A stretch of DNA of 33,579 nucleotides from Chloroflexota bacterium (lineage in GTDB: Bacteria > Chloroflexota > Limnocylindria > Limnocylindrales > CSP1-4). The stretch spans positions 1 to 33,579 of the forward strand of contig PMLK01000023.1 of NCBI GenBank assembly GCA_003158875.1, in the 5' to 3' direction. The notes below the pieces were generated by a model, which saw nothing but the letters and a program-made list of their open reading frames with translations, had not been told where the DNA came from and did no database searches. How positions within the stretch are numbered: the first letter of the stretch is position 1; each line of letters opens with the position of its first letter. Of the stretch, positions 21,932 to 33,073 are shown one piece after another. The position numbers and the translations under genes are program-made.

Positions 21932-24322
<2,391 letters not shown>

Positions 24323-25366
24323 CTACAACACGCCTTCGTGATGACCCGGCAGTTCCGCAACTGCCGAGAGCGGAGCCCAGGTGTTCCGTACGGTGCCGTC
24401 GTCGGATACGCGGCGATGGTGATACAGCGGGCACTGCTTCACGTAGGCCATTACTTCGCTGAACCGGGCAGTGGCCAGTCCGACTACGGAATCCCCTGCA
24501 CCGTAGTAAAGATGCAGTTGATCGGCGTCATGGTCCAGGACCCAGCCGTTGGGGAAGATCACCTTGTCGACGTCACCGACGGACTCGTACGAAGTGACTG
24601 GACCCATGACCCATTCATCCGACCGGCGCAAGACGATTTCGGGGTGGTCGAGGTCGAGCAGCGCAAGGCCGACGCGATAGATCGGGCCGGATGCGGTTTG
24701 GTGAGCTCCGTGATACATGAGCAACCAGCCATCGTCCGTTTCCAGAGGCGGCGGGCCGAGGCCTATCTTTCCGGCGTCCCACCACGCCCCTTCACGAGCC
24801 TCGAGCAGTACCGAGTGGTCGCCCCAGTGGCGAAGGTCGGGCGAATACGAGATCCAGATGTTGGCCGGGCCCTGTATCGGCGCAGGCCGATGAATCATGA
24901 CCCAGCGGCCGTCAAAGCGACGGGGGAAGAGAGCCGCATCCTTGTCGTCGGGCGGCATAACGGGTCCCAGTCGGCGGACCTCCCGGAAGTCGTTCGTCAC
25001 TGCCAGTGAGACGAGCGGGCCACGACCGCTATATGCGGTGTAGGTGATCGCCCATTGCTTCAGTTCGGGCAAGTACACGAGGCGCGGATCCTCGCAACCC
25101 CAGACCTCCTCAGGGTGGCCGGCATCGGGGGCCAGCAGCGCTTCGTCATCGAGTCGCCAGTCGCCGAACCCGTCGGTGCTACGAGCGACGTGAAGCCTCG
25201 AGATGCCGCGAAGGTCCTCCACGCGCAGGAGGAGGACGGTCTCTTCGCCGACCCGCGCCGCACCCGGGTTGAAGACCGTATTGGCCGGATACGGCAGATC
25301 ATCGGCTGTGACGATCGGGTTCGAAGGGTGGCGGACGAAGAGCTTGCGACCGTTGCTCAGCGTCAT
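24323..25366 (-). CDS. GH130 family beta-mannoside phosphorylase or related enzyme
   Basis: This 347-residue five-bladed propeller glycoside phosphorylase starts RKLFVRHPSNPIVTADD and shows VFNPGAARVGEETVLLLRVED, the catalytic-acid motif CEDPR with Asp93, DKDAALFPRR and MIHRPAP (141-163), and GLGPPPLETDDGWLLMYHG. Known family members phosphorolyse beta-1,4- or beta-1,2-mannosides to mannose-1-phosphate, and some only hydrolyse. Basic residues in FPRR and HRP, near where phosphate is held in phosphorylases, are retained, but linkage specificity cannot be told. The ATG at 25366 overlaps the stop of the upstream gene as ATGA, so it is translationally coupled as the last gene of the GT4 cassette. 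The longer frame to 25825 is antisense-like noise inside the upstream gene. No signal peptide is seen, so it acts in the cytoplasm. Confidence 0.93.
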   Translation of the reverse strand: MTLSNGRKLFVRHPSNPIVTADDLPYPANTVFNPGAARVGEETVLLLRVEDLRGISRLHVARSTDGFGDWRLDDEALLAPDAGHPEEVWGCEDPRLVYLPELKQWAITYTAYSGRGPLVSLAVTNDFREVRRLGPVMPPDDKDAALFPRRFDGRWVMIHRPAPIQGPANIWISYSPDLRHWGDHSVLLEAREGAWWDAGKIGLGPPPLETDDGWLLMYHGAHQTASGPIYRVGLALLDLDHPEIVLRRSDEWVMGPVTSYESVGDVDKVIFPNGWVLDHDADQLHLYYGAGDSVVGLATARFSEVMAYVKQCPLYHHRRVSDDGTVRNTWAPLSAVAELPGHHEGVL

Positions 25367-26511
25367 TCCGGGTGCCTCAAAGGCGCAGTCGCGAGTGAGC
25401 GCGTCGGCTGTCTTTTGGCACGCCGTTCGCGCCATCCGCCGGATTCGCTCGAATGCCGCAGTTCGCGCATGGTTTCCAGCGCTGTGAGCCACATCAGCGT
25501 CGACTCGGCGCCCTGATTGATACTCGCACCCCTCGGGTTGAGGCCGTCGAAGCAGCCGCCGCTTGCCGGATCGGCCAGCGGAACGCCGACGTCGTTGTCG
25601 CCGAGGAACCAGGCGTACGCAGCCTCGGCCGCTCTCTCGTACCGGTCGTACCCGGTGGCATGGAACGCGTCGGTGGCCGCCAGGACCATGGTCGCGGCTT
25701 CGATCGGCTGCTGGTCGAAGCGGCTCCGGGTCTTCCCCGGCCACCACCATTCTGAGTTGCCTATCGGTGAGAAGTTGCCCGACTCGGATATCTGAACCTC
25801 GATCAACCAGTCGAGCACGAAGCAAGCGGTCTCTACCACCGCCTGCCGCCCGGTACGGGCTCCGGCCGCAAGCAGCGCTCGAGGCACGATGGGGTTCTCG
25901 TATGTAAGCACCGGCTCCGGCCAGGGCCAGTCGCCGTCAAGCTGGTCACAGTCATCGATCAGCCGCGAGGCCAGCTTGTCGAAGACGGGGGCAGCAGACG
26001 GCGCCACACCGGCCTCGATCACGATGTCGGTGGCGAGGAGCGCCGCCGAAATTGGTCGAATCGCCCGGAACGTCAAAGCTGCCGGGAGCGACAGCAGGAA
26101 CAGGTCGCGGGCACGGTCGGCCAGCTCCGTGCCGGGGATCTGGGCCATCAGCATCGCCAGACTGTGCAAGGCTCTGGCGTGGCAGTCTTCGGAAGGCTCG
26201 GCGTCGAGCCACTCCCCATCCGCGTCGCGGAAATTGAGGAACCTGCCGGTGACGCGGTCGAACGCCGCCGTTAGAAACCTGACGCATCCGGCGGCCGACT
26301 CGTCAACCGCCCGCCAGCCGAGTTCGCGCGACTGCAGCACGTGCACGACGAGCGCTCGAGCCACATCGTCGGTGCAGTAGCCGAACCGCGGATCTGGATC
26401 CGATCCACGTGCGTGCTGCCACACCCCAATCTCTGTGGTCATGGCTTCGAGATGGATGCGCGATACGTCGTAGAGCGGTCTGGCAGGTTCCTGGTCTTCG
26501 GTGGCGCCCAT
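25363..26511 (-). CDS. Alpha/alpha-barrel-like protein of a GT4-GH130 cassette
   Basis: The product has 382 residues and appears all-helical, with repeated Ala/Trp-rich helices and conserved stretches such as GYCTDDVARALVV, SEDCHARALHSLA, WPWPEPVLTYENPIVPRALL, PIGNSEWWWPGK, DQQPIEAATMVLAA and CFDGLNPRGASINQGAEST. Such patterns are typical of (alpha/alpha)6-barrel carbohydrate-active proteins; homologues are often annotated only as glycosyltransferase-associated or hypothetical. Acidic residues in CTDD and SEDC are candidates for an active site. The ATG at 26511 leaves a 7-base gap after the GT4 stop; the ATG at 26544 would overlap it and is also possible, since neither has a strong ribosome site. 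Its 3' end overlaps the GH130 gene by 4 bases. It may be a glycosidase or glycan-binding partner. Confidence 0.8.
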   Translation of the reverse strand: MGATEDQEPARPLYDVSRIHLEAMTTEIGVWQHARGSDPDPRFGYCTDDVARALVVHVLQSRELGWRAVDESAAGCVRFLTAAFDRVTGRFLNFRDADGEWLDAEPSEDCHARALHSLAMLMAQIPGTELADRARDLFLLSLPAALTFRAIRPISAALLATDIVIEAGVAPSAAPVFDKLASRLIDDCDQLDGDWPWPEPVLTYENPIVPRALLAAGARTGRQAVVETACFVLDWLIEVQISESGNFSPIGNSEWWWPGKTRSRFDQQPIEAATMVLAATDAFHATGYDRYERAAEAAYAWFLGDNDVGVPLADPASGGCFDGLNPRGASINQGAESTLMWLTALETMRELRHSSESGGWRERRAKRQPTRSLATAPLRHPE

Positions 26512-26518
26512 GCTTCGG

Positions 26519-27718
26519 TTAAGCACGAACCACGCCCATCTCATGCGATTCCATCGACGAACCGAGGCTGGCCGCAGCTACGAGTTCACGTGTATCGAGG
26601 GCACCAACGCGATCGAAGATACGTCTATACCGCGCTCCGACCTCCGGCCAGATCATCGTCCGGCTGAACTCGTACGCCTTTCTGCCCAGTCTGGCCCTCA
26701 GGCCGCGATCGCCGATCAGTCCGATGAGGGCTCCTCCGAGATCGTCGCTTGCACTGGACGGTACAAGCAGACCACGGCCCGCTTCGAGCATCTCGACCGC
26801 ATAGCTGTAACGGGTCGACACGATCGCCTTGCCGGCGCTCATTGCGTACGCCAGGGTTCCAGACACGATCTGATCGGGGTTGGGATACGGAGTTACGAAG
26901 ATGTCGGCCGCGGTGAGCCACGTTCCCAGCTCGGCACGGGTGACGAAACGATCGACGAAGTTGACGTGATCGGCCACGCCCAGCCTGACCGCCCGCTCTT
27001 TGAGCCCATTTCGGTAGGCCTCGCCTTCGCGCCGCAGCAGTTCCGGGTGAGTGGCGCCGAGGATCACGTAATAGGCGGTCGGGTCGGCCGCCACGACCGA
27101 CGGCATTGCCTCGATCACGGCCTCGTAGCCCTTGCCCGGCCCCAGGAGCCCAAAGCTCAGAATCATCGGCGCGATTGGCATGCCCAGTCTGGGCTTGATC
27201 GAGTCGGGCTCTGCACAAGGCAGGTGCGGCACTCCGTGCGGCACAACGTCCAGGGTCGTTTTGTCCACACCGTAGACACGCTCCAGCAGGGAGGCCGCAG
27301 ACCGCGACATAACGACCGAAGCGGCGCTGGCCCTGATCAGGCTCATCAGGACGCGGCGCTGGCCGGGCGAAGGGTGCTGTGGAACGGTATGGAGCGTCGA
27401 GACCACAGGCTTGGTCAGCGCGGCGACGAAATCGAGCACGTATGAGCCGTCCACTCCGCCCCAGATTCCGTATTCGTGCTGAACCGAGACGACCCGCGCG
27501 TCAGAGTCGTTCAGAGCCCGAGCCACACGCACGTAGTCACCTCGGACGTCGCGGCGGATCCGATGCTTGACCTCGCTCGGATAGACGTCCGGACCGTCCG
27601 GTGAATGCAGCACGGCAATCGCGGCATCGCCGCACGCACCGGCAAGATCCAGGGTAAAAGTGGCTATGCCGCAGCGACGCGGAGGGTAAGTAGCGACGAA
27701 AACGTTGCGTGCAGTCAT
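26519..27718 (-). CDS. Family 4 glycosyltransferase
   Basis: This 399-residue GT-B fold retaining glycosyltransferase begins VFVATYPPRRCGIATFTLDLA, a hallmark start of one GT4 subgroup. It continues with VSVQHEYGIWGG, LHTVPQHPS, VVPHGVPHLP, ILSFGLLGPGKGYEAVIEAM, VNFVDRFVTRAELGTWLTAADIFVTPYPNPDQIVSGTLAYAMSAGKAIVSTRY and VEMLEAGRGLLV. The C-terminal donor-binding part has the expected Glu in SYAVEMLEAG. The sugar donor is probably GDP- or UDP-linked but is not shown by the sequence. It is cytoplasmic or peripheral, with no membrane segments. The ATG at 27718 has AAGG about 5 bases upstream. It is the first gene of a coupled three-gene unit with a barrel-like protein and GH130. Confidence 0.93.
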   Translation of the reverse strand: MTARNVFVATYPPRRCGIATFTLDLAGACGDAAIAVLHSPDGPDVYPSEVKHRIRRDVRGDYVRVARALNDSDARVVSVQHEYGIWGGVDGSYVLDFVAALTKPVVSTLHTVPQHPSPGQRRVLMSLIRASAASVVMSRSAASLLERVYGVDKTTLDVVPHGVPHLPCAEPDSIKPRLGMPIAPMILSFGLLGPGKGYEAVIEAMPSVVAADPTAYYVILGATHPELLRREGEAYRNGLKERAVRLGVADHVNFVDRFVTRAELGTWLTAADIFVTPYPNPDQIVSGTLAYAMSAGKAIVSTRYSYAVEMLEAGRGLLVPSSASDDLGGALIGLIGDRGLRARLGRKAYEFSRTMIWPEVGARYRRIFDRVGALDTRELVAAASLGSSMESHEMGVVRA

Positions 27719-27745
27719 GGCGCCTTTCGAGCAATCTGCCGGCGA

Positions 27746-27751
27746 AATCTA
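27746..27751 (-). promoter_or_regulatory. Candidate -10 element for the GT4 cassette
   Basis: The minus strand reads TAGATT, about 28 bases before the GT4 ATG. It is flanked by a 5-bp inverted repeat (GCCGG at 27738-27742 and CCGGC at 27753-27757), which could be a weak operator. The rest of the 236-base gap to the pcrA stop shows nothing I can name. Confidence 0.35.
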
Positions 27752-27954
27752 ACCGGCCCGGTCATTCCGGAGTGATGCCCTTCGGTCGGACTCCCGCGAA
27801 CGTGGGACCCAAGGCGGCGGCGACATGCCACCTGAGTGCGGACTCAAGCCAACCTGTCCGCCTCTAGTTCCGAGTTACATGGTCAACGTCATCCACTTTA
27901 CTCGCTATTCCCGGTACTGCATAGCCGAGGTACGAATGGCGGAACCGGACCGTG

Positions 27955-30951
27955 CTACCCGATCAGATCCAGGTTGGCGATACTTGCCAGCAGCGTCTTG
28001 ATGCCGCCGCCGTTGGAGAAGGCCACGGTGACTTCCTCGTCGTTGCGGGTCAACTTCGAGGTGACGACGATTCCGTCGCCGAGCCGGGCGTGACGAACGC
28101 GGTCGCCGTCGCGAAACTGCCGCTCACCCGGAATGCGTGGTCGGGAGGCGATCGGCGGCCGCGCCTGGCCCGGTTTCGCGCCGAGTCCACGGTCCTCGCC
28201 GTCCCAGTGCGCGCCGCTTCCCTCGACAACTACGTCCTGGTCGCCGTCCGCGTGGGCGCCGGCATCGAGGCTACCTGACCGCGCGCCGGCCCGATACGCA
28301 TCGCGGCGCGCCCCCAGGTCGCGGCTCGGCTGGAACTGCTCGCCGGGCCGCGGGGCACCGGGCCGACCGCTGCCGGTCCGCCACGCCCCACCGCCGGCCC
28401 CGATGGGCGTCCCGAAGCGGCTCGACTGGCGCCGGCCGAAGATCATCTCCGGGTCGATCTGACCCACATCGTCGTCGAAGTCGGCGACTGCGCCCAGGCG
28501 CGGGCCACTCATCAACTCCGCCGGAATCTCGAACAGGAACCGGCTCGGAACCGATAGGCCGCCCTGGCCCCACGTCGCGCGGCGAGCGGCATGAGAGAGG
28601 AACAACCGCCGCTTGGCCCGAGTTATGCCCACGTACGCGAGCCGTCGCTCTTCCTCTAGCTGCTTCTCGTCATCGAGCGAGCGGCTGTGCGGGAAGACGC
28701 CTTCCTCCAGCCCGGCGATGAACACGACGGGGAACTCGAGGCCCTTGGCGGCATGGAGGGTAATGAGCGTCACGGCGTCGGCACCGGCTTCGTAGGAATC
28801 CTGGTCGGCGACGAGAGCGGTCTCCTCCAGAAACCTGTCCAGAGCATCGTCGGGCGTCAAGTCGTCGTAGCGGGTCGTGACCGAACGCAGCTCGAGCAGG
28901 TTGTTCCAGCGCTCCTCGCCGTCTTCGGAGCCGTCGGCCAGCATGGCCCGATAGCCGGAATCCTCGAGGACGGCATCGAGCAACTCCGGCAACGGCAGCA
29001 CGCCTATGCGGCTGCGAAGGCGCGTGACCAGAGTCGCGAATCCGGCCAGCGACGTTCGCGCCCGCGACCCCAACGTCGGGAGACGACCTTCGGCCCCATC
29101 GACGATGGCGCTCCAGTACGTTGGCTCGGCGGGGATTGAGTCCAATACAGAGGCCGAGCCCTGAGCGGACCCAGAGCCTGAGGCCGGTTCCGTCGCGTCA
29201 TGGTCGAGGTCCAGCAATCCATCGGGTGCGCTCGGGCGGGCGACGATCGTCCGTCCGCCGGCCGCGGCGACCCGCAACTCCTCCAGACTCTTGTCGCCGA
29301 TACCGCGGGCGGGCACGTTCAGGATCCGCTCGAAACTGACCTGGTCCGTGTCGTTGCGCAGGATCCGCAGGTACGCCAGAGCGTCCTTGACCTCGCGGCG
29401 CTGGTAGAACCGAGTGCCGCCAACGAGCTGGTAGCGAATGCCGTAGCGCAGGAACGCTTCTTCGATGGCACGGCTTTGAGCGTTGGTTCGGTACATCACC
29501 GCCACGTCGCCGCGGTCCCAGCGTTCGATCTCCTCGTCGGCGCGACGCGTCAGAGCCGAGCCCCGGCCACCGGTCAGATCCTCGATCTGCCGGGCGATCC
29601 ATTCGGCCTCTTCCTCTTCGTTGTAAGCCTCGAAGCGGCCGATCTGGCGGCCGCCGGAGTTGTCCGTCCAAAGTTTCTTGTCTTTGCGCGACGAGTTGTG
29701 GGTCACCACGGCATGGGCGGCGTCCAGGATCAACTGAGTCGAGCGGTAGTTCTGTTCGAGCTTTATGACGGTCGCGTTGGGATAGTCGCCTTCGAAGTCG
29801 AGGATGTTGCGGATGTCCGCCCCGCGCCAGGAATAGATCGACTGGTCGTCGTCACCGACAACGCAGAGGTTTCCGTGAGCGGCGGCCATGGCCTTGACCC
29901 ACAGGTACTGAGGCCGGTTGGTGTCCTGATACTCGTCGACGTGAATGTAGCGCCACCGACCCTGATACCGCTCGAGCACGTCCGGTGCATCGTGGAAGAG
30001 CCGCACGGCCTCGAGCAGTAGATCGTCGAAATCGAGCGCCGCCGCCGACTTGAGGCGGGCTTGATAGCGCCGATACAGCCGGGCGATCTCCCTCTCTCGA
30101 TGTGTATGGGCGTTGGCCGCGATGAAGTCAGCGTCGAGCATCTCGTTCTTGGCCCGCGAGATCGCGCCCAGGATGGCACTCGGTTTGTACTCACCGGTTA
30201 TGGGCAGATCCTCATCCTTGAGGATCTGCTTCATCAGGGCCTGCTGATCGTCTGAGTCGTAAACCACGAAATGGCGGTCCAGGCCTATGGCGCCGCCGTC
30301 ACGGCGGAGTACGCGGGCGCACAGTGCGTGGAACGTACCCATCGCCACTTCCCGGCCGGCCTCCTCCCCGACCAGACCGATGATTCGGGCCCGCAGTTCC
30401 GCCGCCGACTTGTTCGTGAACGTGACCGCCAGGATCTGCCACGGCCGGACCCCCTTGACGCCCACCAGATAGGCGACTCGATGCGCCAGGACGCGAGTCT
30501 TGCCGCTGCCTGCCCCGGCCAGAATGAGAACCGGTCCGTCCGTCGTCGTGACCGCTCGACCCTGCTCTGGATTGAGCCGGCCCAGAATCCGCTCCGCGAG
30601 AGCGTCCGCCGCAGCCTGGCGCTCCGCTTCTCCCACCGGGGACGGCTCGAACGGCGACGGCTCGCGCGGCTCTATGCGCGGTCCGTCGAACGCCTCCGGG
30701 GGAGCCTCGTCCGGCAGCGGGGCATCTTCGGGAAGGACACCGACGAGCTGCCGGCCGTCAGCGCCAGTTGTGGCGCCGGCCGGGGCGGTTGCGTTGCCGT
30801 CCGACGCCGTTGGTGCGCCGGTCGGGTCCGCGGGCGCCACGGAATCCGAGTCTGCGGGCATGTCCCACCAGCCCTCGACGGGGTCGCGTGTCACCTTGCC
30901 GCGGTTGCGTTCATTCGGGGCGTCGTGCCCGCGGGACGATGTCGGATTCAC
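27955..30951 (-). CDS. pcrA: ATP-dependent 3'-5' DNA helicase (PcrA/UvrD)
   Basis: This superfamily 1 helicase of excision repair and fork maintenance has 998 residues, well above the usual 720-780. Motifs include the Q motif LNPEQGRAV (126-), Walker A GAGSGKT (146-152), FTNKSAAELRARI, GTFHALCARVLRR, Walker B HVDEYQDTN, GDDDQSIYSWRGAD, LEQNYRST, ITLHAAKGLEFPVVFIAGLEEG and LAYVGITRAKRRLFLSHA. The C-terminal GDRVRHARLGDGIVV segment is the Tudor-like domain that contacts RNA polymerase in PcrA. Extra length comes from a Pro/Ala-rich N-terminal extension of about 120 residues and an insert near 29100-29270 with Gly/Ser repeats. GTG at 30951 lies 6 bases after a TACAAT; ATG at 30861 is an alternative with GAGGG about 10 bases upstream. 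Either would leave the helicase core whole. Confidence 0.96.
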   Translation of the reverse strand: MNPTSSRGHDAPNERNRGKVTRDPVEGWWDMPADSDSVAPADPTGAPTASDGNATAPAGATTGADGRQLVGVLPEDAPLPDEAPPEAFDGPRIEPREPSPFEPSPVGEAERQAAADALAERILGRLNPEQGRAVTTTDGPVLILAGAGSGKTRVLAHRVAYLVGVKGVRPWQILAVTFTNKSAAELRARIIGLVGEEAGREVAMGTFHALCARVLRRDGGAIGLDRHFVVYDSDDQQALMKQILKDEDLPITGEYKPSAILGAISRAKNEMLDADFIAANAHTHREREIARLYRRYQARLKSAAALDFDDLLLEAVRLFHDAPDVLERYQGRWRYIHVDEYQDTNRPQYLWVKAMAAAHGNLCVVGDDDQSIYSWRGADIRNILDFEGDYPNATVIKLEQNYRSTQLILDAAHAVVTHNSSRKDKKLWTDNSGGRQIGRFEAYNEEEEAEWIARQIEDLTGGRGSALTRRADEEIERWDRGDVAVMYRTNAQSRAIEEAFLRYGIRYQLVGGTRFYQRREVKDALAYLRILRNDTDQVSFERILNVPARGIGDKSLEELRVAAAGGRTIVARPSAPDGLLDLDHDATEPASGSGSAQGSASVLDSIPAEPTYWSAIVDGAEGRLPTLGSRARTSLAGFATLVTRLRSRIGVLPLPELLDAVLEDSGYRAMLADGSEDGEERWNNLLELRSVTTRYDDLTPDDALDRFLEETALVADQDSYEAGADAVTLITLHAAKGLEFPVVFIAGLEEGVFPHSRSLDDEKQLEEERRLAYVGITRAKRRLFLSHAARRATWGQGGLSVPSRFLFEIPAELMSGPRLGAVADFDDDVGQIDPEMIFGRRQSSRFGTPIGAGGGAWRTGSGRPGAPRPGEQFQPSRDLGARRDAYRAGARSGSLDAGAHADGDQDVVVEGSGAHWDGEDRGLGAKPGQARPPIASRPRIPGERQFRDGDRVRHARLGDGIVVTSKLTRNDEEVTVAFSNGGGIKTLLASIANLDLIG

Positions 30952-31000: not shown

Positions 31001-31993
31001 CTAGTTGCTCGCGACCGGCGCAGGCGTGACGACCTGGTTCGGAGCAGGCCCACTGATGATCCCGACGCGGTTCCAGTTCGACAGGACGAGTCGGATGATG
31101 GCGGTTCCGGCAGCCGGATCCGCGGTCGAGAACTCGAGCCGCTCCAGCTGGAAGTCGTTCTGGGTGATCCACAGATCCAGTTGGCCGGTGCCCTGGTTCT
31201 GAACAGCGCCGAGATTCGCGAGCTGCGCGCTCAGAGCCGACTGGGTCACGCTAACGCGGATGTGATAGCAGGAGCCGCCCGGCTCTTGCTCCGTGCCAAC
31301 CAGGACTGGGCTGAGGCTCTTGTCGCTGGCGGCGGCCACAACTTGCTGAACGATATATAGGCTCTGGCTCGAGAGGGCCGGATCCACAGCCAATTCCGAT
31401 GAACCCTGCTCGTGGAACCTGGTCTCGCCATAGCCACGGAAGTAGGCGTAGGGCTCAACTACGAGCAGCTCGCCGGAGACGCCGGGCAGGCCGGGCATTC
31501 CGCCGATGACGTGAGCGGTGCCTTTGCCGAAGTCGATGTCGCCATCGGCGACTGTGCCCGCCAGAGATACCGGAACGGCGGTGTATACAGGCGTGGGGGT
31601 TGCGGTCGGAGACGCGGCCTCGCTCGGCGATGGGCTGGCCGTCGGTTCCGGAGTCGGTGAGGGACTCGGCGAGGGGCTGACAGAGGCCCCGGCAGAGCCG
31701 GAAGCTGCCGCCGAAGTCGAGGCACTGGCAGAAGCTTCCGTGCTGGCAGAGGGTTCCGTGGAAGGCGTGTCGGATGGGACTGGAGTATCGGCGGCACTGG
31801 CCTCAACGCCGACCGCGAACTGGCCGCCCGCCTCGAGATGGAAATGGACGGACTGCAGGTTGGTGATCGAGTTGTCCACCTTGTTGAGGATCTCGCGCGG
31901 GTCCGTCAGGTTGGCTTGCGAGCAACCTTCCAGGAGCGACGTCACGGCCAGCAGGCCAGCGACGATGACGGCGAGTGACTTCCGACGAGACAC
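31001..31993 (-). CDS. LppX/LprG-like lipoprotein with long Ser/Pro/Thr-rich insert
   Basis: This 330-residue secreted lipoprotein has a signal peptide ending SLLEGC with Cys24 as the lipidation site. After DPREILNKVDNSITNLQSVHF the chain enters a Ser/Ala/Pro/Thr-rich stretch of about 75 residues (62-138), then returns to beta-rich sequence (AVPVSLAGTVADGDIDF, LLVVEPYAYFRGYGETRF, CYHIRVSVT, LDLWITQNDFQLERLEF). The pattern fits the LppX_LprAFG fold, which in mycobacteria carries lipids or glycolipids to the outer envelope. The insert interrupts the first beta-sheet connection. GTG at 31993 is chosen because GGAGG (32000-32004) lies 6 bases upstream; GTG at 32008 overlaps that site. It is the second of two related lipoprotein genes, separated from the first by a strong hairpin. 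Confidence 0.85.
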   Translation of the reverse strand: MSRRKSLAVIVAGLLAVTSLLEGCSQANLTDPREILNKVDNSITNLQSVHFHLEAGGQFAVGVEASAADTPVPSDTPSTEPSASTEASASASTSAAASGSAGASVSPSPSPSPTPEPTASPSPSEAASPTATPTPVYTAVPVSLAGTVADGDIDFGKGTAHVIGGMPGLPGVSGELLVVEPYAYFRGYGETRFHEQGSSELAVDPALSSQSLYIVQQVVAAASDKSLSPVLVGTEQEPGGSCYHIRVSVTQSALSAQLANLGAVQNQGTGQLDLWITQNDFQLERLEFSTADPAAGTAIIRLVLSNWNRVGIISGPAPNQVVTPAPVASN

Positions 31994-32081
31994 CTGACTC
32001 CTCCACACGAAATGCCGACACGTGGCCGCACGGCCGCTCCACCGTCAGCACAAGGCGCACCTGCGCGCTACGGCGTCCTGC

Positions 32082-32087
32082 AGTGTA
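32082..32087 (-). promoter_or_regulatory. Candidate -10 element for the downstream lipoprotein gene
   Basis: The minus strand reads TACACT, about 90 bases before the GTG at 31993. It lies after the strong hairpin at 32136-32173, which fits independent transcription of the second lipoprotein gene. No -35 is evident. Confidence 0.35.
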
Positions 32088-32135
32088 ACCGCACCGGGGC
32101 TGGTGGCGCCTGAAACAAGCGCCGGCCCCGGACTA

Positions 32136-32173
32136 GTCAGGAGCCCCTGGGCTTGCGCCTCGGGGCTCCTGAC
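32136..32173 (-). terminator. Perfect 12-bp hairpin between the two lipoprotein genes
   Basis: GTCAGGAGCCCC (32136-32147) pairs with GGGGCTCCTGAC (32162-32173); an inner GGC/GCC pairing extends the structure. It follows the first lipoprotein gene in transcription order. No T-tract is seen. A smaller GGCGAC/GTCGCC stem (32195-32209) lies just before it. Confidence 0.65.
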
Positions 32174-32218
32174 CGCGATTACGTGTGATTTGTCGGCGAC
32201 GAAGTCGCCTTTGCCAGG

Positions 32219-33073
32219 CTACGGATTGACGTCGCCAGCCGCCGGTGCGGAAATCGTCACGGCCTTGTCGTAGTCCGTGATCGTGACGACGAGATCGAGA
32301 CTTCCTAGCGACGACGACGCGCCCTTGATCTCGAACTGGGCGGGTCGGTTGTTGGACGTGTATACCCAGAAATCGACTGACGCGGAGTCGAGCTTCATGG
32401 ACGTATCGCCGCTGGCCTCGGCCGCGATTTCGGCATTGACCTTGTCGAGAGGAACGGAAACGTTGAGGTGATACGCGTCCTGGCCGCTCACCTTGTCCAC
32501 GCCGACGAGCGTCGCCTTGACGCCCGCATCGTCCATCTGCTTCTTCAACTGGGTGATCTCGTCCGTCAGGCCCGACGCGCCGGCGGTCGGCAGGACGCTC
32601 GGGATGGCCATGGGAATGGAACTGCTCAGACTGCCCAGGTCCTGCTTGGAGTACTTGGCGCTCAACAGGCTGACCTTGTAGTAGAGAGCCTTGTCAGCAA
32701 CGATCAGGTCGCCGGTGATGGGCACGTTGCCCAGCATCGCCAGAGCCGGAACGCTTAGGGCCAGATGCGCAGCCTGATTTGTTACGTCGACATCGCCCTC
32801 GAGTGTGGTTCCGTCCAGCTTCAGGTCGCCTGTGACCGGGATCCCGACATCGGCCGTGGCGGACTTCAGGGCCGCCGCGTTGATGGTTCCGTTCACCGCG
32901 ATCTTGATGTGGAACGATTTGATATCGGCACCGCCGTTGATGGCGGCACTGATGATCGAGTTCGGGTCGCTCAGTTTTGCGTCGCTAGAGCCACCGCCGC
33001 CCGTACAGGCACCTGCAGCCACGAGAACGAAACCGGCTACAAAGGCGAGAGCCATCTTCGGCATTCGTGTCAA
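32219..33073 (-). CDS. LppX/LprG-like lipoprotein
   Basis: The product has 284 residues. The signal peptide ends with lipobox AGAC and lipidated Cys23, followed by a Gly/Ser spacer. The mature domain runs DPNSIISAAINGGADIKSFHIKIAVNGTI, GDLKLDGTTLEGDVDV, GDLIVADKALYYKVSLLSAKYSKQ, AYHLNVSVPLDKV, VDFWVYTSNNRPAQFEIK and LVVTITDYDKAVTISAP, a repeating beta pattern like LppX/LprG lipid-carrier lipoproteins. It is probably a paralogue of the next gene downstream, without that gene's disordered insert. The start is TTG at 33073, because GGGAGG (33082-33087) lies 8 bases upstream; the ATG at 33064 would be 17 bases away. Known relatives bind triacylated lipids, but the ligand here is unknown. Confidence 0.87.
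   Translation of the reverse strand: MTRMPKMALAFVAGFVLVAAGACTGGGGSSDAKLSDPNSIISAAINGGADIKSFHIKIAVNGTINAAALKSATADVGIPVTGDLKLDGTTLEGDVDVTNQAAHLALSVPALAMLGNVPITGDLIVADKALYYKVSLLSAKYSKQDLGSLSSSIPMAIPSVLPTAGASGLTDEITQLKKQMDDAGVKATLVGVDKVSGQDAYHLNVSVPLDKVNAEIAAEASGDTSMKLDSASVDFWVYTSNNRPAQFEIKGASSSLGSLDLVVTITDYDKAVTISAPAAGDVNP

Follow-up and report, generated by a model that had tools for sequence, protein, structure and literature searches.

The closest described systems come from Thermoanaerobacter, mycobacteria and Leishmania. In the available text of PMC4264767, the Thermoanaerobacter cluster Teth514_1785 to 1796 combines genes for a GT4 glycosyltransferase and a mannose-1-phosphate guanylyltransferase with those of neighbouring beta-1,2-mannoside phosphorylases of the cytosol. 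In the mycobacterial methylmannose polysaccharide (MMP) cluster, an intracellular GT-B alpha-mannosyltransferase (ManT) is accompanied by an (alpha/alpha)6 endomannosidase (MmpH) that re-primes synthesis, according to sections of PMC9883506. Leishmania makes and degrades mannogen, an intracellular beta-1,2-mannan, by means of GH130-like propellers via mannose-1-phosphate (excerpts of PMC8950772). According to passages of PMC4264767 and PMC8950772, characterised GH130 phosphorylases act on beta-mannosides, and the beta-1,2 GH130 markers given in part of PMC4599007 are a Glu beside the catalytic Asp and a Lys at the +1 subsite. No published description of the module reported here was found among open-licence PMC papers, where searches for the trio and related systems yielded the Thermoanaerobacter paper and reviews.

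This module lies in a window of 33,579 nucleotides, the whole stretch of DNA analysed, from a Chloroflexota bacterium (contig PMLK01000023.1), and probably makes and recycles an intracellular mannose-based compound. It consists of a GT4 glycosyltransferase, an all-helical protein and a GH130 enzyme, encoded head to tail on the minus strand (Table 1). The original prediction described these genes as packed with a 7-base gap and a 4-base overlap, and the coordinates match exactly: the GT4-to-barrel gap is 7 bases when the barrel starts at ATG 26511, and the GH130 start lies inside the barrel gene's stop (ATGA, four shared bases). The longest frame of the barrel gene opens at 26544 and encodes 393 aa up to the stop at 25363; barrel residues were numbered from this opening at 26544. 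The predicted cytoplasmic location agreed with a simple hydropathy scan, in which none of the three proteins has a signal-peptide-like hydrophobic N-terminal stretch, and no transporter gene is present within the trio or adjoining it in the window. Neither a mannose-supply gene adjoining the trio nor a methyltransferase gene within it was found in the window.

Table 1. Features of the trio (window coordinates) and the basis of each assignment.
Feature	Position	Strand	Basis
GT4 glycosyltransferase, 399 aa, first gene of the trio	26519..27718	-	Pfam, GT-B model, cross-phylum conservation
Invariant GT4 Gln283, aligned with or next to the position where EX7E usually has its first Glu	26870..26872	-	Alignment
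(alpha/alpha)6-barrel protein without Pfam family, 382 aa from ATG 26511	25363..26511	-	Pfam scan, model, fold matches
Barrel Asp59-Asp60 (YCTDDVAR), candidate catalytic acids	26365..26370	-	51/51 members
Barrel Glu347 (NQGAEST), candidate catalytic acid/base	25504..25506	-	51/51 members; retained in 7tem
GH130 mannoside phosphorylase-type enzyme, 347 aa	24323..25366	-	PF04041; TM1225 nearest solved structure; own cassette-linked clade
GH130 catalytic Asp93 with preceding Glu92	25088..25093	-	Alignment; role from PMC4599007 (in part)
GH130 Lys142, beta-1,2 specificity lysine position	24941..24943	-	Alignment; PMC4599007 (in part)
GH130 Arg160, phosphate-ligand position	24887..24889	-	Alignment
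GH130 Lys200, phosphate-ligand position	24767..24769	-	Alignment
GH130 His219, phosphate-ligand position	24710..24712	-	Alignment
GH130 Tyr230, phosphate-ligand position	24677..24679	-	Alignment

The trio is conserved as a unit far beyond the genus. Homologous loci numbered at least 578 after confirmation; the best 80 were named, and phylum counts drawn from them are therefore no census. Within these 80 loci, which come from many phyla, GT4 and the helical domain form one fused protein in 56, and a GH130 gene is nearby in 58 of the 66 with at least 1.5 kb of downstream flank, the other 8 having none nearby; lack of conservation as a unit, the outcome that the original prediction named as refuting, was not found. 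The same partners are present, in a different order, in trios of distant lineages. Among 400 genomes of the phylum, GH130 lies within 5 kb of at least 35 of the 44 strong barrel genes, a lower bound since 150 of the GH130 matches were used, versus a chance expectation of roughly 0.2, for which the density of GH130 genes and the genome size were assumed. Seven fragment rows (three from G030 C53 and one each from G083 C554, G075 C100, G343 C21 60297 and G394) were dropped before this count. A chance neighbourhood was rejected, as the observed pairing is far above expectation.

The GT4 protein is conserved across phyla and combines the two features by which membership of the family was judged, a GT4 domain match (PF00534, 7e-16; PF13439, 4e-8) and a GT-B fold (model pLDDT 90.7), its nearest folds being retaining GT4 enzymes including PimA, PimB' and ManT. 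The usual GT4 motif is EX7E, although some GT4 enzymes lack it; in our alignment, which has a one-residue gap there, the trio GT4 appears to lack the usual glutamates, with the invariant Gln283 and a near-invariant Tyr291 at the aligned positions. Since these glutamates appear to be absent and UDP-sugar enzymes match the fold equally well as GDP-mannose enzymes, the donor is not secured. Enzymes of family GT4 retain configuration, and a GDP-alpha-mannose donor would therefore give an alpha bond.

The helical protein was expected to be barrel-like, and its model (mean pLDDT 92.1) indeed matches (alpha/alpha)6 barrels, with glycosidases and sugar epimerases as neighbours when AlphaFold models were compared at the fold level. 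The window protein has no Pfam family and no NCBIfam name, and its assignment to a known Pfam family was rejected: the best, PF07944 (GH127), matched 3 of 51 members at 3.8e-6, and all others were at 0.025 or worse. Its nearest structure (Z 38.5), and its only sequence relative in the PDB (3e-19), is YPO2471 (PDB 7tem), annotated as exported and of unassigned function, which shares the DD, DG and GAEST motifs with the barrel but lacks its FDQQPIE motif. Asp59, Asp60, Asp120, Asp333 and Glu347 are invariant in all 51 members, and the Asp59-Asp60 pair is retained in 7tem and in the distant branch; the invariant acids are glycosidase-like.

The GH130 protein matched PF04041 at 1.1e-53 (182.7 bits, cut-off 26) and retains the catalytic acid together with each of the four phosphate-ligand positions in the alignment. 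By sequence alignment, Arg160, Lys200, His219 and Tyr230 match the presumed phosphate ligands of seven characterised enzymes, and the literature search found no paper naming GH130 phosphate ligands by residue number. A hydrolase, in which the basic residues are replaced, was rejected on these retained positions; the hydrolase-only outcome, sought as the opposite of the predicted phosphorylase, was not found, and the enzyme is most simply read as phosphorylase-type. Glu and Lys markers are carried by 4/4 beta-1,2 references, Tyr and Arg by 3/3 beta-1,4 references, and the window enzyme has E92, D93 and K142, the beta-1,2 pattern. The best-scoring cassette GH130s have Glu beside the acid and the beta-1,2 Lys in 41/41, with Arg, His and Tyr at the ligand positions in 41/41 and Lys (40) or Arg (1) at the fourth; among the 30 low-scoring GH130s, most of which are long, 20 carry Gln at one of the phosphate-ligand positions. 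In a phylogeny, as proposed in the original prediction, the window GH130 belongs to a separate, cassette-linked clade (44 rows, support 100/99) and falls outside the clade of TM1225, Uhgb_MP and RaMP2 (support 100/100), presumably GH130_2 references. Three GH130 clades are cassette-linked. The NCBIfam beta-1,2 GH130 equivalogs NF050092, NF052550 and NF058598 were unmatched (205, 177 and 82 bits versus cut-offs of 550, 450 and 550, respectively). A GH130 paralogue on contig C121 was rejected as part of a second trio: in L002 neither a GT4 nor a barrel match adjoins it, and none was recognised when the frames of the 8.7-kb contig were inspected.

Trio operons of Alphaproteobacteria include genes for mannose-6-phosphate isomerase (PMI), phosphomannomutase (PMM) or GDP-mannose synthase/mannose-1-phosphate guanylyltransferase (GMP), upholding the mannose connection of the original prediction, and several adjoin chaperone genes. 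A Sphingobium amiense plasmid carries PMI, PMM and GMP all around the trio, with groES-groEL alongside, and GT4-PMI fusion proteins occur in several clusters. The window's genome has GMP adjoining PMM, and a type I PMI. The plasmid regions examined were 16 of 66 records with a match, many of the sphingomonad rows being near copies; neighbour clustering served only to choose genes for Pfam, since shadow frames of close relatives had inflated part of it.

We lean towards a module of the cytosol for both synthesis and turnover of an oligo- or polysaccharide that contains mannose. In the scheme that we infer for donor, linkages, direction and barrel activity, the GT4 would move mannose from GDP-mannose onto an internal acceptor, forming an alpha bond, and the barrel, fused to GT4 in most relatives, is predicted to be a glycosidase-type enzyme trimming or re-priming the GT4 product. 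The GH130 would reversibly add or remove beta-1,2-linked mannose via mannose-1-phosphate, and mannose units could therefore be stored and recovered without ATP. The suggestion that a single glycan is made by the synthase and recovered by the phosphorylase did not hold in its simple form: GT4 enzymes are retaining, with an alpha product expected from GDP-alpha-mannose, and GH130 cuts beta bonds, so that the same bond is not simply made and recovered, and either two linkages are present or GH130 itself forms the beta bond. A storage or stress polymer, also suggested, fits the chaperone genes beside some relatives' operons, the role itself being one that we infer.

Salvage is an unlikely alternative, in which GH130 would phosphorolyse imported beta-mannosides to mannose-1-phosphate, this would yield GDP-mannose, and GT4 would glycosylate a surface target while the barrel trims intermediates. 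It is the model published for Thermoanaerobacter, with two GH130s, an ABC transporter, GMP and GT4 (PMC4264767, in the text available). The trio in the window, however, has no adjoining transporter, the 97 proteins encoded next to it in relatives show, in their 25 commonest Pfam families (85 further families lie beyond), a single transporter, one nucleoside-transporter match, and relatives encode de novo supply through PMI, PMM and GMP, not import. It is unlikely that the module makes and recycles a small compatible solute (e.g. a mannosylglycerate-like mannoside) against heat, cold or salt stress. Sphingomonad plasmid operons are flanked by dnaK, grpE, Hsp20, universal stress protein, Dps and groES-groEL genes, and in Sinorhizobium a desaturase gene and a cold-shock gene come after PMI, GT4-barrel and GH130; but the rows with chaperone genes represent plasmid islands closely related to one another, and hence few independent cases, and the GH130 clade markers indicate oligomannoside (beta-1,2) chemistry.

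The fusion, the conserved pairing and the fact that distant lineages have the same partners in another order make it very unlikely that these are ordinary envelope-polysaccharide genes, neighbours by happenstance, even though exopolysaccharide clusters commonly hold GT4 genes and some cassettes have extra GT4s nearby (15 of the 97 neighbours examined in relatives); moreover, no flippase or polymerase family is among the 25 commonest Pfam families of these neighbours. Hardly credible is an AGE-type 2-epimerase forming with GH130 a beta-mannan catabolic unit to which GT4 is unrelated, for although cellobiose 2-epimerases are the second-best fold family for the barrel (Z about 31) and two Rhizobium plasmids carry a separate AGE gene after GH130, that gene is present in addition to the barrel, the barrel is fused to GT4 and not to GH130, and the two catalytic His in the barrel of AGE epimerases are without counterpart in its C-terminal half, its near-invariant His being H31 and H44 only, both N-terminal.

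The making and turnover of a mannose glycan can be given a more specific but less probable form, that of a bacterial counterpart of mannogen. This would be a cytosolic reserve of beta-1,2-mannan (or of alpha-primed, beta-1,2-capped oligomannan), widespread and partly plasmid-borne. Its priming and re-priming would fall to a fused GT4-glycosidase, with the barrel as a new glycosidase family, and its extension and recovery, with mannose-1-phosphate, to dedicated GH130 clades; in some hosts it would be tied to protein-folding stress. If the module does make and turn over a mannose glycan, bacteria of many phyla would have in common an unrecognised intracellular glycan of this kind, along with dedicated phosphorylases and a protein that fuses synthase and glycosidase. 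An enzyme family without Pfam entry would gain a function, several GH130 clades without characterised member in this tree would acquire a cytosolic synthetic, not dietary catabolic, role, and mobile plasmids would offer a testable tie of mannose metabolism to stress.

Compared with the trio, the Thermoanaerobacter cluster shares cytosolic phosphorylases beside a GT4 but has an ABC transporter and a GH5 enzyme, and the available text reports no GT4-barrel fusion (PMC4264767). The solved GH130s of that type belong to a clade different from that of the window GH130. The mannogen system is eukaryotic and uses GT108 instead of GH130, and we know of no GT4-barrel partner for it. Lin0857 and Uhgb_MS (GH130, beta-1,2) have the Glu and Lys markers in common with the window GH130 but belong to a different clade, and in sister lineages whose trios are reordered, Lin0857-like GH130s stand where the window has its own type. 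Unlike the trio, the MMP cluster has methyltransferases and, in the sections at hand, no GH130 (PMC9883506). The likeness of the MMP pair is one of fold only (GT4-ManT, Z 31.5; barrel-MmpH, Z 25.8), with identity of 10 to 19% and other folds outscoring both, and Asp47 of MmpH, like Asp59-Asp60 of the barrel, sits in the loop that joins the first helix to the second.

The analysis confirmed the three cassette genes, which lie on the window's minus strand with the 7-base gap and the 4-base overlap (ATGA) originally described. The window corresponds to one contig (C55) of a draft genome of 2.64 Mb, whose closest named relatives, among the best 80 of at least 578 homologous loci, are Chloroflexi metagenome genomes. 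Conserved frames flank the trio on both sides in close relatives (fen genomes). An amidase gene (gatA-like) and gatB are located farther out from the uvrD-trio-ligA stretch (21932-30951), and two adjacent genes at 31001-33073 show a weak Pfam likeness to LppX/LprAFG lipoproteins, one just above the cut-off and one below it.

Positions of the cassette genes, two GT4 residues and the neighbouring genes in the window
Feature	Position	Strand	Remark
GT4 glycosyltransferase	27718-26519	minus	
GT4 residues 283, 291	26870-26872, 26846-26848	minus	Gln, Tyr at or beside the usual EX7E Glu positions
Helical protein	ATG 26511, stop at 25363	minus	
GH130 enzyme	25366-24323	minus	
uvrD	27955-30951	minus	upstream of trio
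ligA	21932-24238	minus	downstream of trio

All three genes were present in 18 of 30 loci from close relatives (L003 to L032), several of the remaining ones being cut off at contig ends. The scan of named genomes used the best 80 of at least 578 loci, from Chloroflexota, Spirochaetota, Planctomycetota, Actinomycetota, Acidobacteriota, Verrucomicrobiota, Gemmatimonadota, Thermodesulfobacteriota, Gammaproteobacteria and Rhodothermus. Among these 80, GT4 and the helical (barrel) protein were encoded as one frame in 56 and by adjacent genes in 20; GT4 was off the contig in two and missing in two. GH130 was nearby in 58 of the 66 with at least 1.5 kb downstream, and was not found nearby in the other eight (L048, L053, L055, L062, L072, L073, L101 and L106). 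Across 400 genomes of the phylum, GH130 was within 5 kb of at least 35 of 44 strong barrel genes and of at least 17 of 35 genes of a distant barrel branch. Six regions of this branch were examined. In four, from sister lineages (L149, L150, L151, L153), GT4 comes first, then a Lin0857-like GH130 and last a divergent barrel; in two the barrel lay within a longer frame, with GH130 nearby and no GT4 match. The partners are thus kept together despite changes in order, fusion and GH130 clade. Decaying copies were observed: only a GT4 remnant precedes the barrel in L010, no GT4 match stands beside it in L040, L016 has in-frame stops in the barrel, and the fused gene is broken in L179.

The GH130 enzyme matched PF04041 (1.1e-53, Pfam), and TM1225 was the solved structure closest by sequence. 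In an alignment with seven characterised enzymes the catalytic Asp93 is kept, and so are four predicted phosphate-ligand positions, R160, K200, H219 and Y230, in agreement with the proposed phosphorylase; these positions were assigned through the alignment and the Bacteroides fragilis enzyme numbering. The enzyme carries E92 beside the acid and K142, a Glu and Lys pair common to the four beta-1,2 references, and Tyr and Arg are found in all three beta-1,4 references. According to PMC4599007, basic residues are lost in GH130 hydrolases, a Tyr/Glu change beside the acid tells groups apart, and beta-1,2 specificity is signalled by a lysine. A tree of 100 GH130 rows placed the enzyme in a 44-row clade (support 100/99) in which all rows except an own-genome paralogue (L002) come from loci with a barrel gene. 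None of the characterised enzymes used here falls inside this clade. Two more cassette-linked clades were well supported: 11 rows of second copies, with Arg replacing the beta-1,2 Lys, and 29 rows of long forms from Alphaproteobacteria, Acidobacteria, Verrucomicrobia, Desulfobacteraceae and others. Gln occupies one phosphate-ligand position in 20 of 30 low-scoring rows, which makes phosphorolysis by the long forms less sure. A second GH130 of the window's genome (L143, 4113-5204, contig C121) shares about 61% identity with the first, and neither a GT4 nor a barrel partner was recognised on its 8.7-kb contig.

The GT4 model (pLDDT 90.7) matched retaining GT4 enzymes, including the GDP-mannose enzymes PimA (Z 34.1), PimB' (32.3) and ManT (31.5). 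UDP-sugar enzymes scored equally or higher, and the donor therefore cannot be read from the fold. Conservation of this family between phyla is striking. GT4 enzymes usually, though not always, carry the two glutamates of the EX7E motif; neither was recognised here, with Gln283 invariant and Tyr291 nearly invariant at the aligned positions, where the alignment has a one-residue gap.

The helical protein had no match among Pfam and NCBIfam families. Its model (pLDDT 92.1, from a 51-row alignment) matched (alpha/alpha)6 barrels, the first being 7tem (Z 38.5, rmsd 2.6, 334 aligned), a Yersinia pestis protein of function not established and the only clear sequence relative in PDB (3.4e-19). Cellobiose 2-epimerases were second (Z about 31), followed by GH76 alpha-mannanases (to Z 28.6) and the methylmannose polysaccharide hydrolase MmpH (Z 25.8). 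Counted from the frame start at 26544, all 51 relatives share D59, D60, D120, D333 and E347, and the DD, DG and GAE motifs are kept in 7tem and in the distant branch that accompanies GH130 elsewhere in the phylum. An epimerase of the 2-epimerase (AGE) family was rejected because the catalytic histidines typical of such enzymes are missing. From this absence, the folds, the conserved acidic motifs and the placement of D59-D60 between the first two barrel helices, we infer a glycosidase-type enzyme. The putative acid of MmpH, Asp47 (PMC9883506), sits where the barrel has D59-D60.

Sixteen of 66 matching plasmid records were examined (L155 to L165, L179 to L183), where annotated homologues are named 'glycosyltransferase family 4 protein'. 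GH130 was in the fetched stretch of all 16, as called from annotation, or by profile in two unannotated regions and Deinococcus; the S. paeninsulae region has a broken fused gene, with GH130 and mannose-6-phosphate isomerase (PMI) on the opposite strand. PMI, mannose-1-phosphate guanylyltransferase (GMP), phosphomannomutase (PMM) or AGE isomerase genes were within the fetched stretch in 10 of 14 annotated regions. The order in Sphingobium amiense is groES-groEL, GMP/PMI, PMI, GT4-barrel, GH130, PMM, and several sphingomonad copies, closely related rows, adjoin dnaK and grpE, some also Hsp20 genes. GT4-PMI fusions were found in chromosomal clusters. In the window's genome, contig C124 has a GMP-type gene (278 bits, below the cut-off of that bifunctional model) adjoining PMM, and contig C60 carries a type I PMI.

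Other neighbours were also observed. On sphingomonad plasmids (L180, L163, L182, L183, L156) the mannose operon lies beside groES-groEL, dnaK, grpE, Hsp20, universal stress protein and Dps genes, and several of these plasmids have a gene for a tyrosine recombinase upstream. Between cassette genes, L084 (7017-8420) and L063 (7995-9371) have a GT4 domain fused to the PMI C-terminal (cupin) domain. On two Rhizobium plasmids the gene after GH130 (L162, 8652-9782; L181, 9652-10785) codes for an AGE-family epimerase/isomerase. Several Deltaproteobacteria-type genomes have a RelA/SpoT-type gene directly upstream of their cassette (L076, 3143-4678; similar frames in L067 and L110), with three members in the Pfam tally.

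The original prediction of a single loop, in which synthase and phosphorylase make and recover one glycan, fails on stereochemistry. A glycan with two linkages, or GH130 acting as a polymerase, would be compatible with the data. Fructose-6-phosphate would be converted through Man-6-P and Man-1-P to GDP-Man; GT4, as a member of a retaining family, would make an alpha-linked mannosyl product, and the barrel, tied to it by fusion or operon, would trim or cut this product. GH130 would add beta-1,2-mannose from Man-1-P or remove it, and since this reaction is reversible, mannose could be stored and recovered without ATP.

Every component of the trio has known relatives; no description of the trio, the fused GT4-barrel, the barrel family or these GH130 clades was found in the open-licence literature searched. 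The barrel may supply fresh primers in the way that MmpH serves ManT in methylmannose polysaccharide metabolism. For the polymerase, a precedent is given by Leishmania GT108 (PMC8950772), of which, in that role, the GH130 described here is a possible counterpart.
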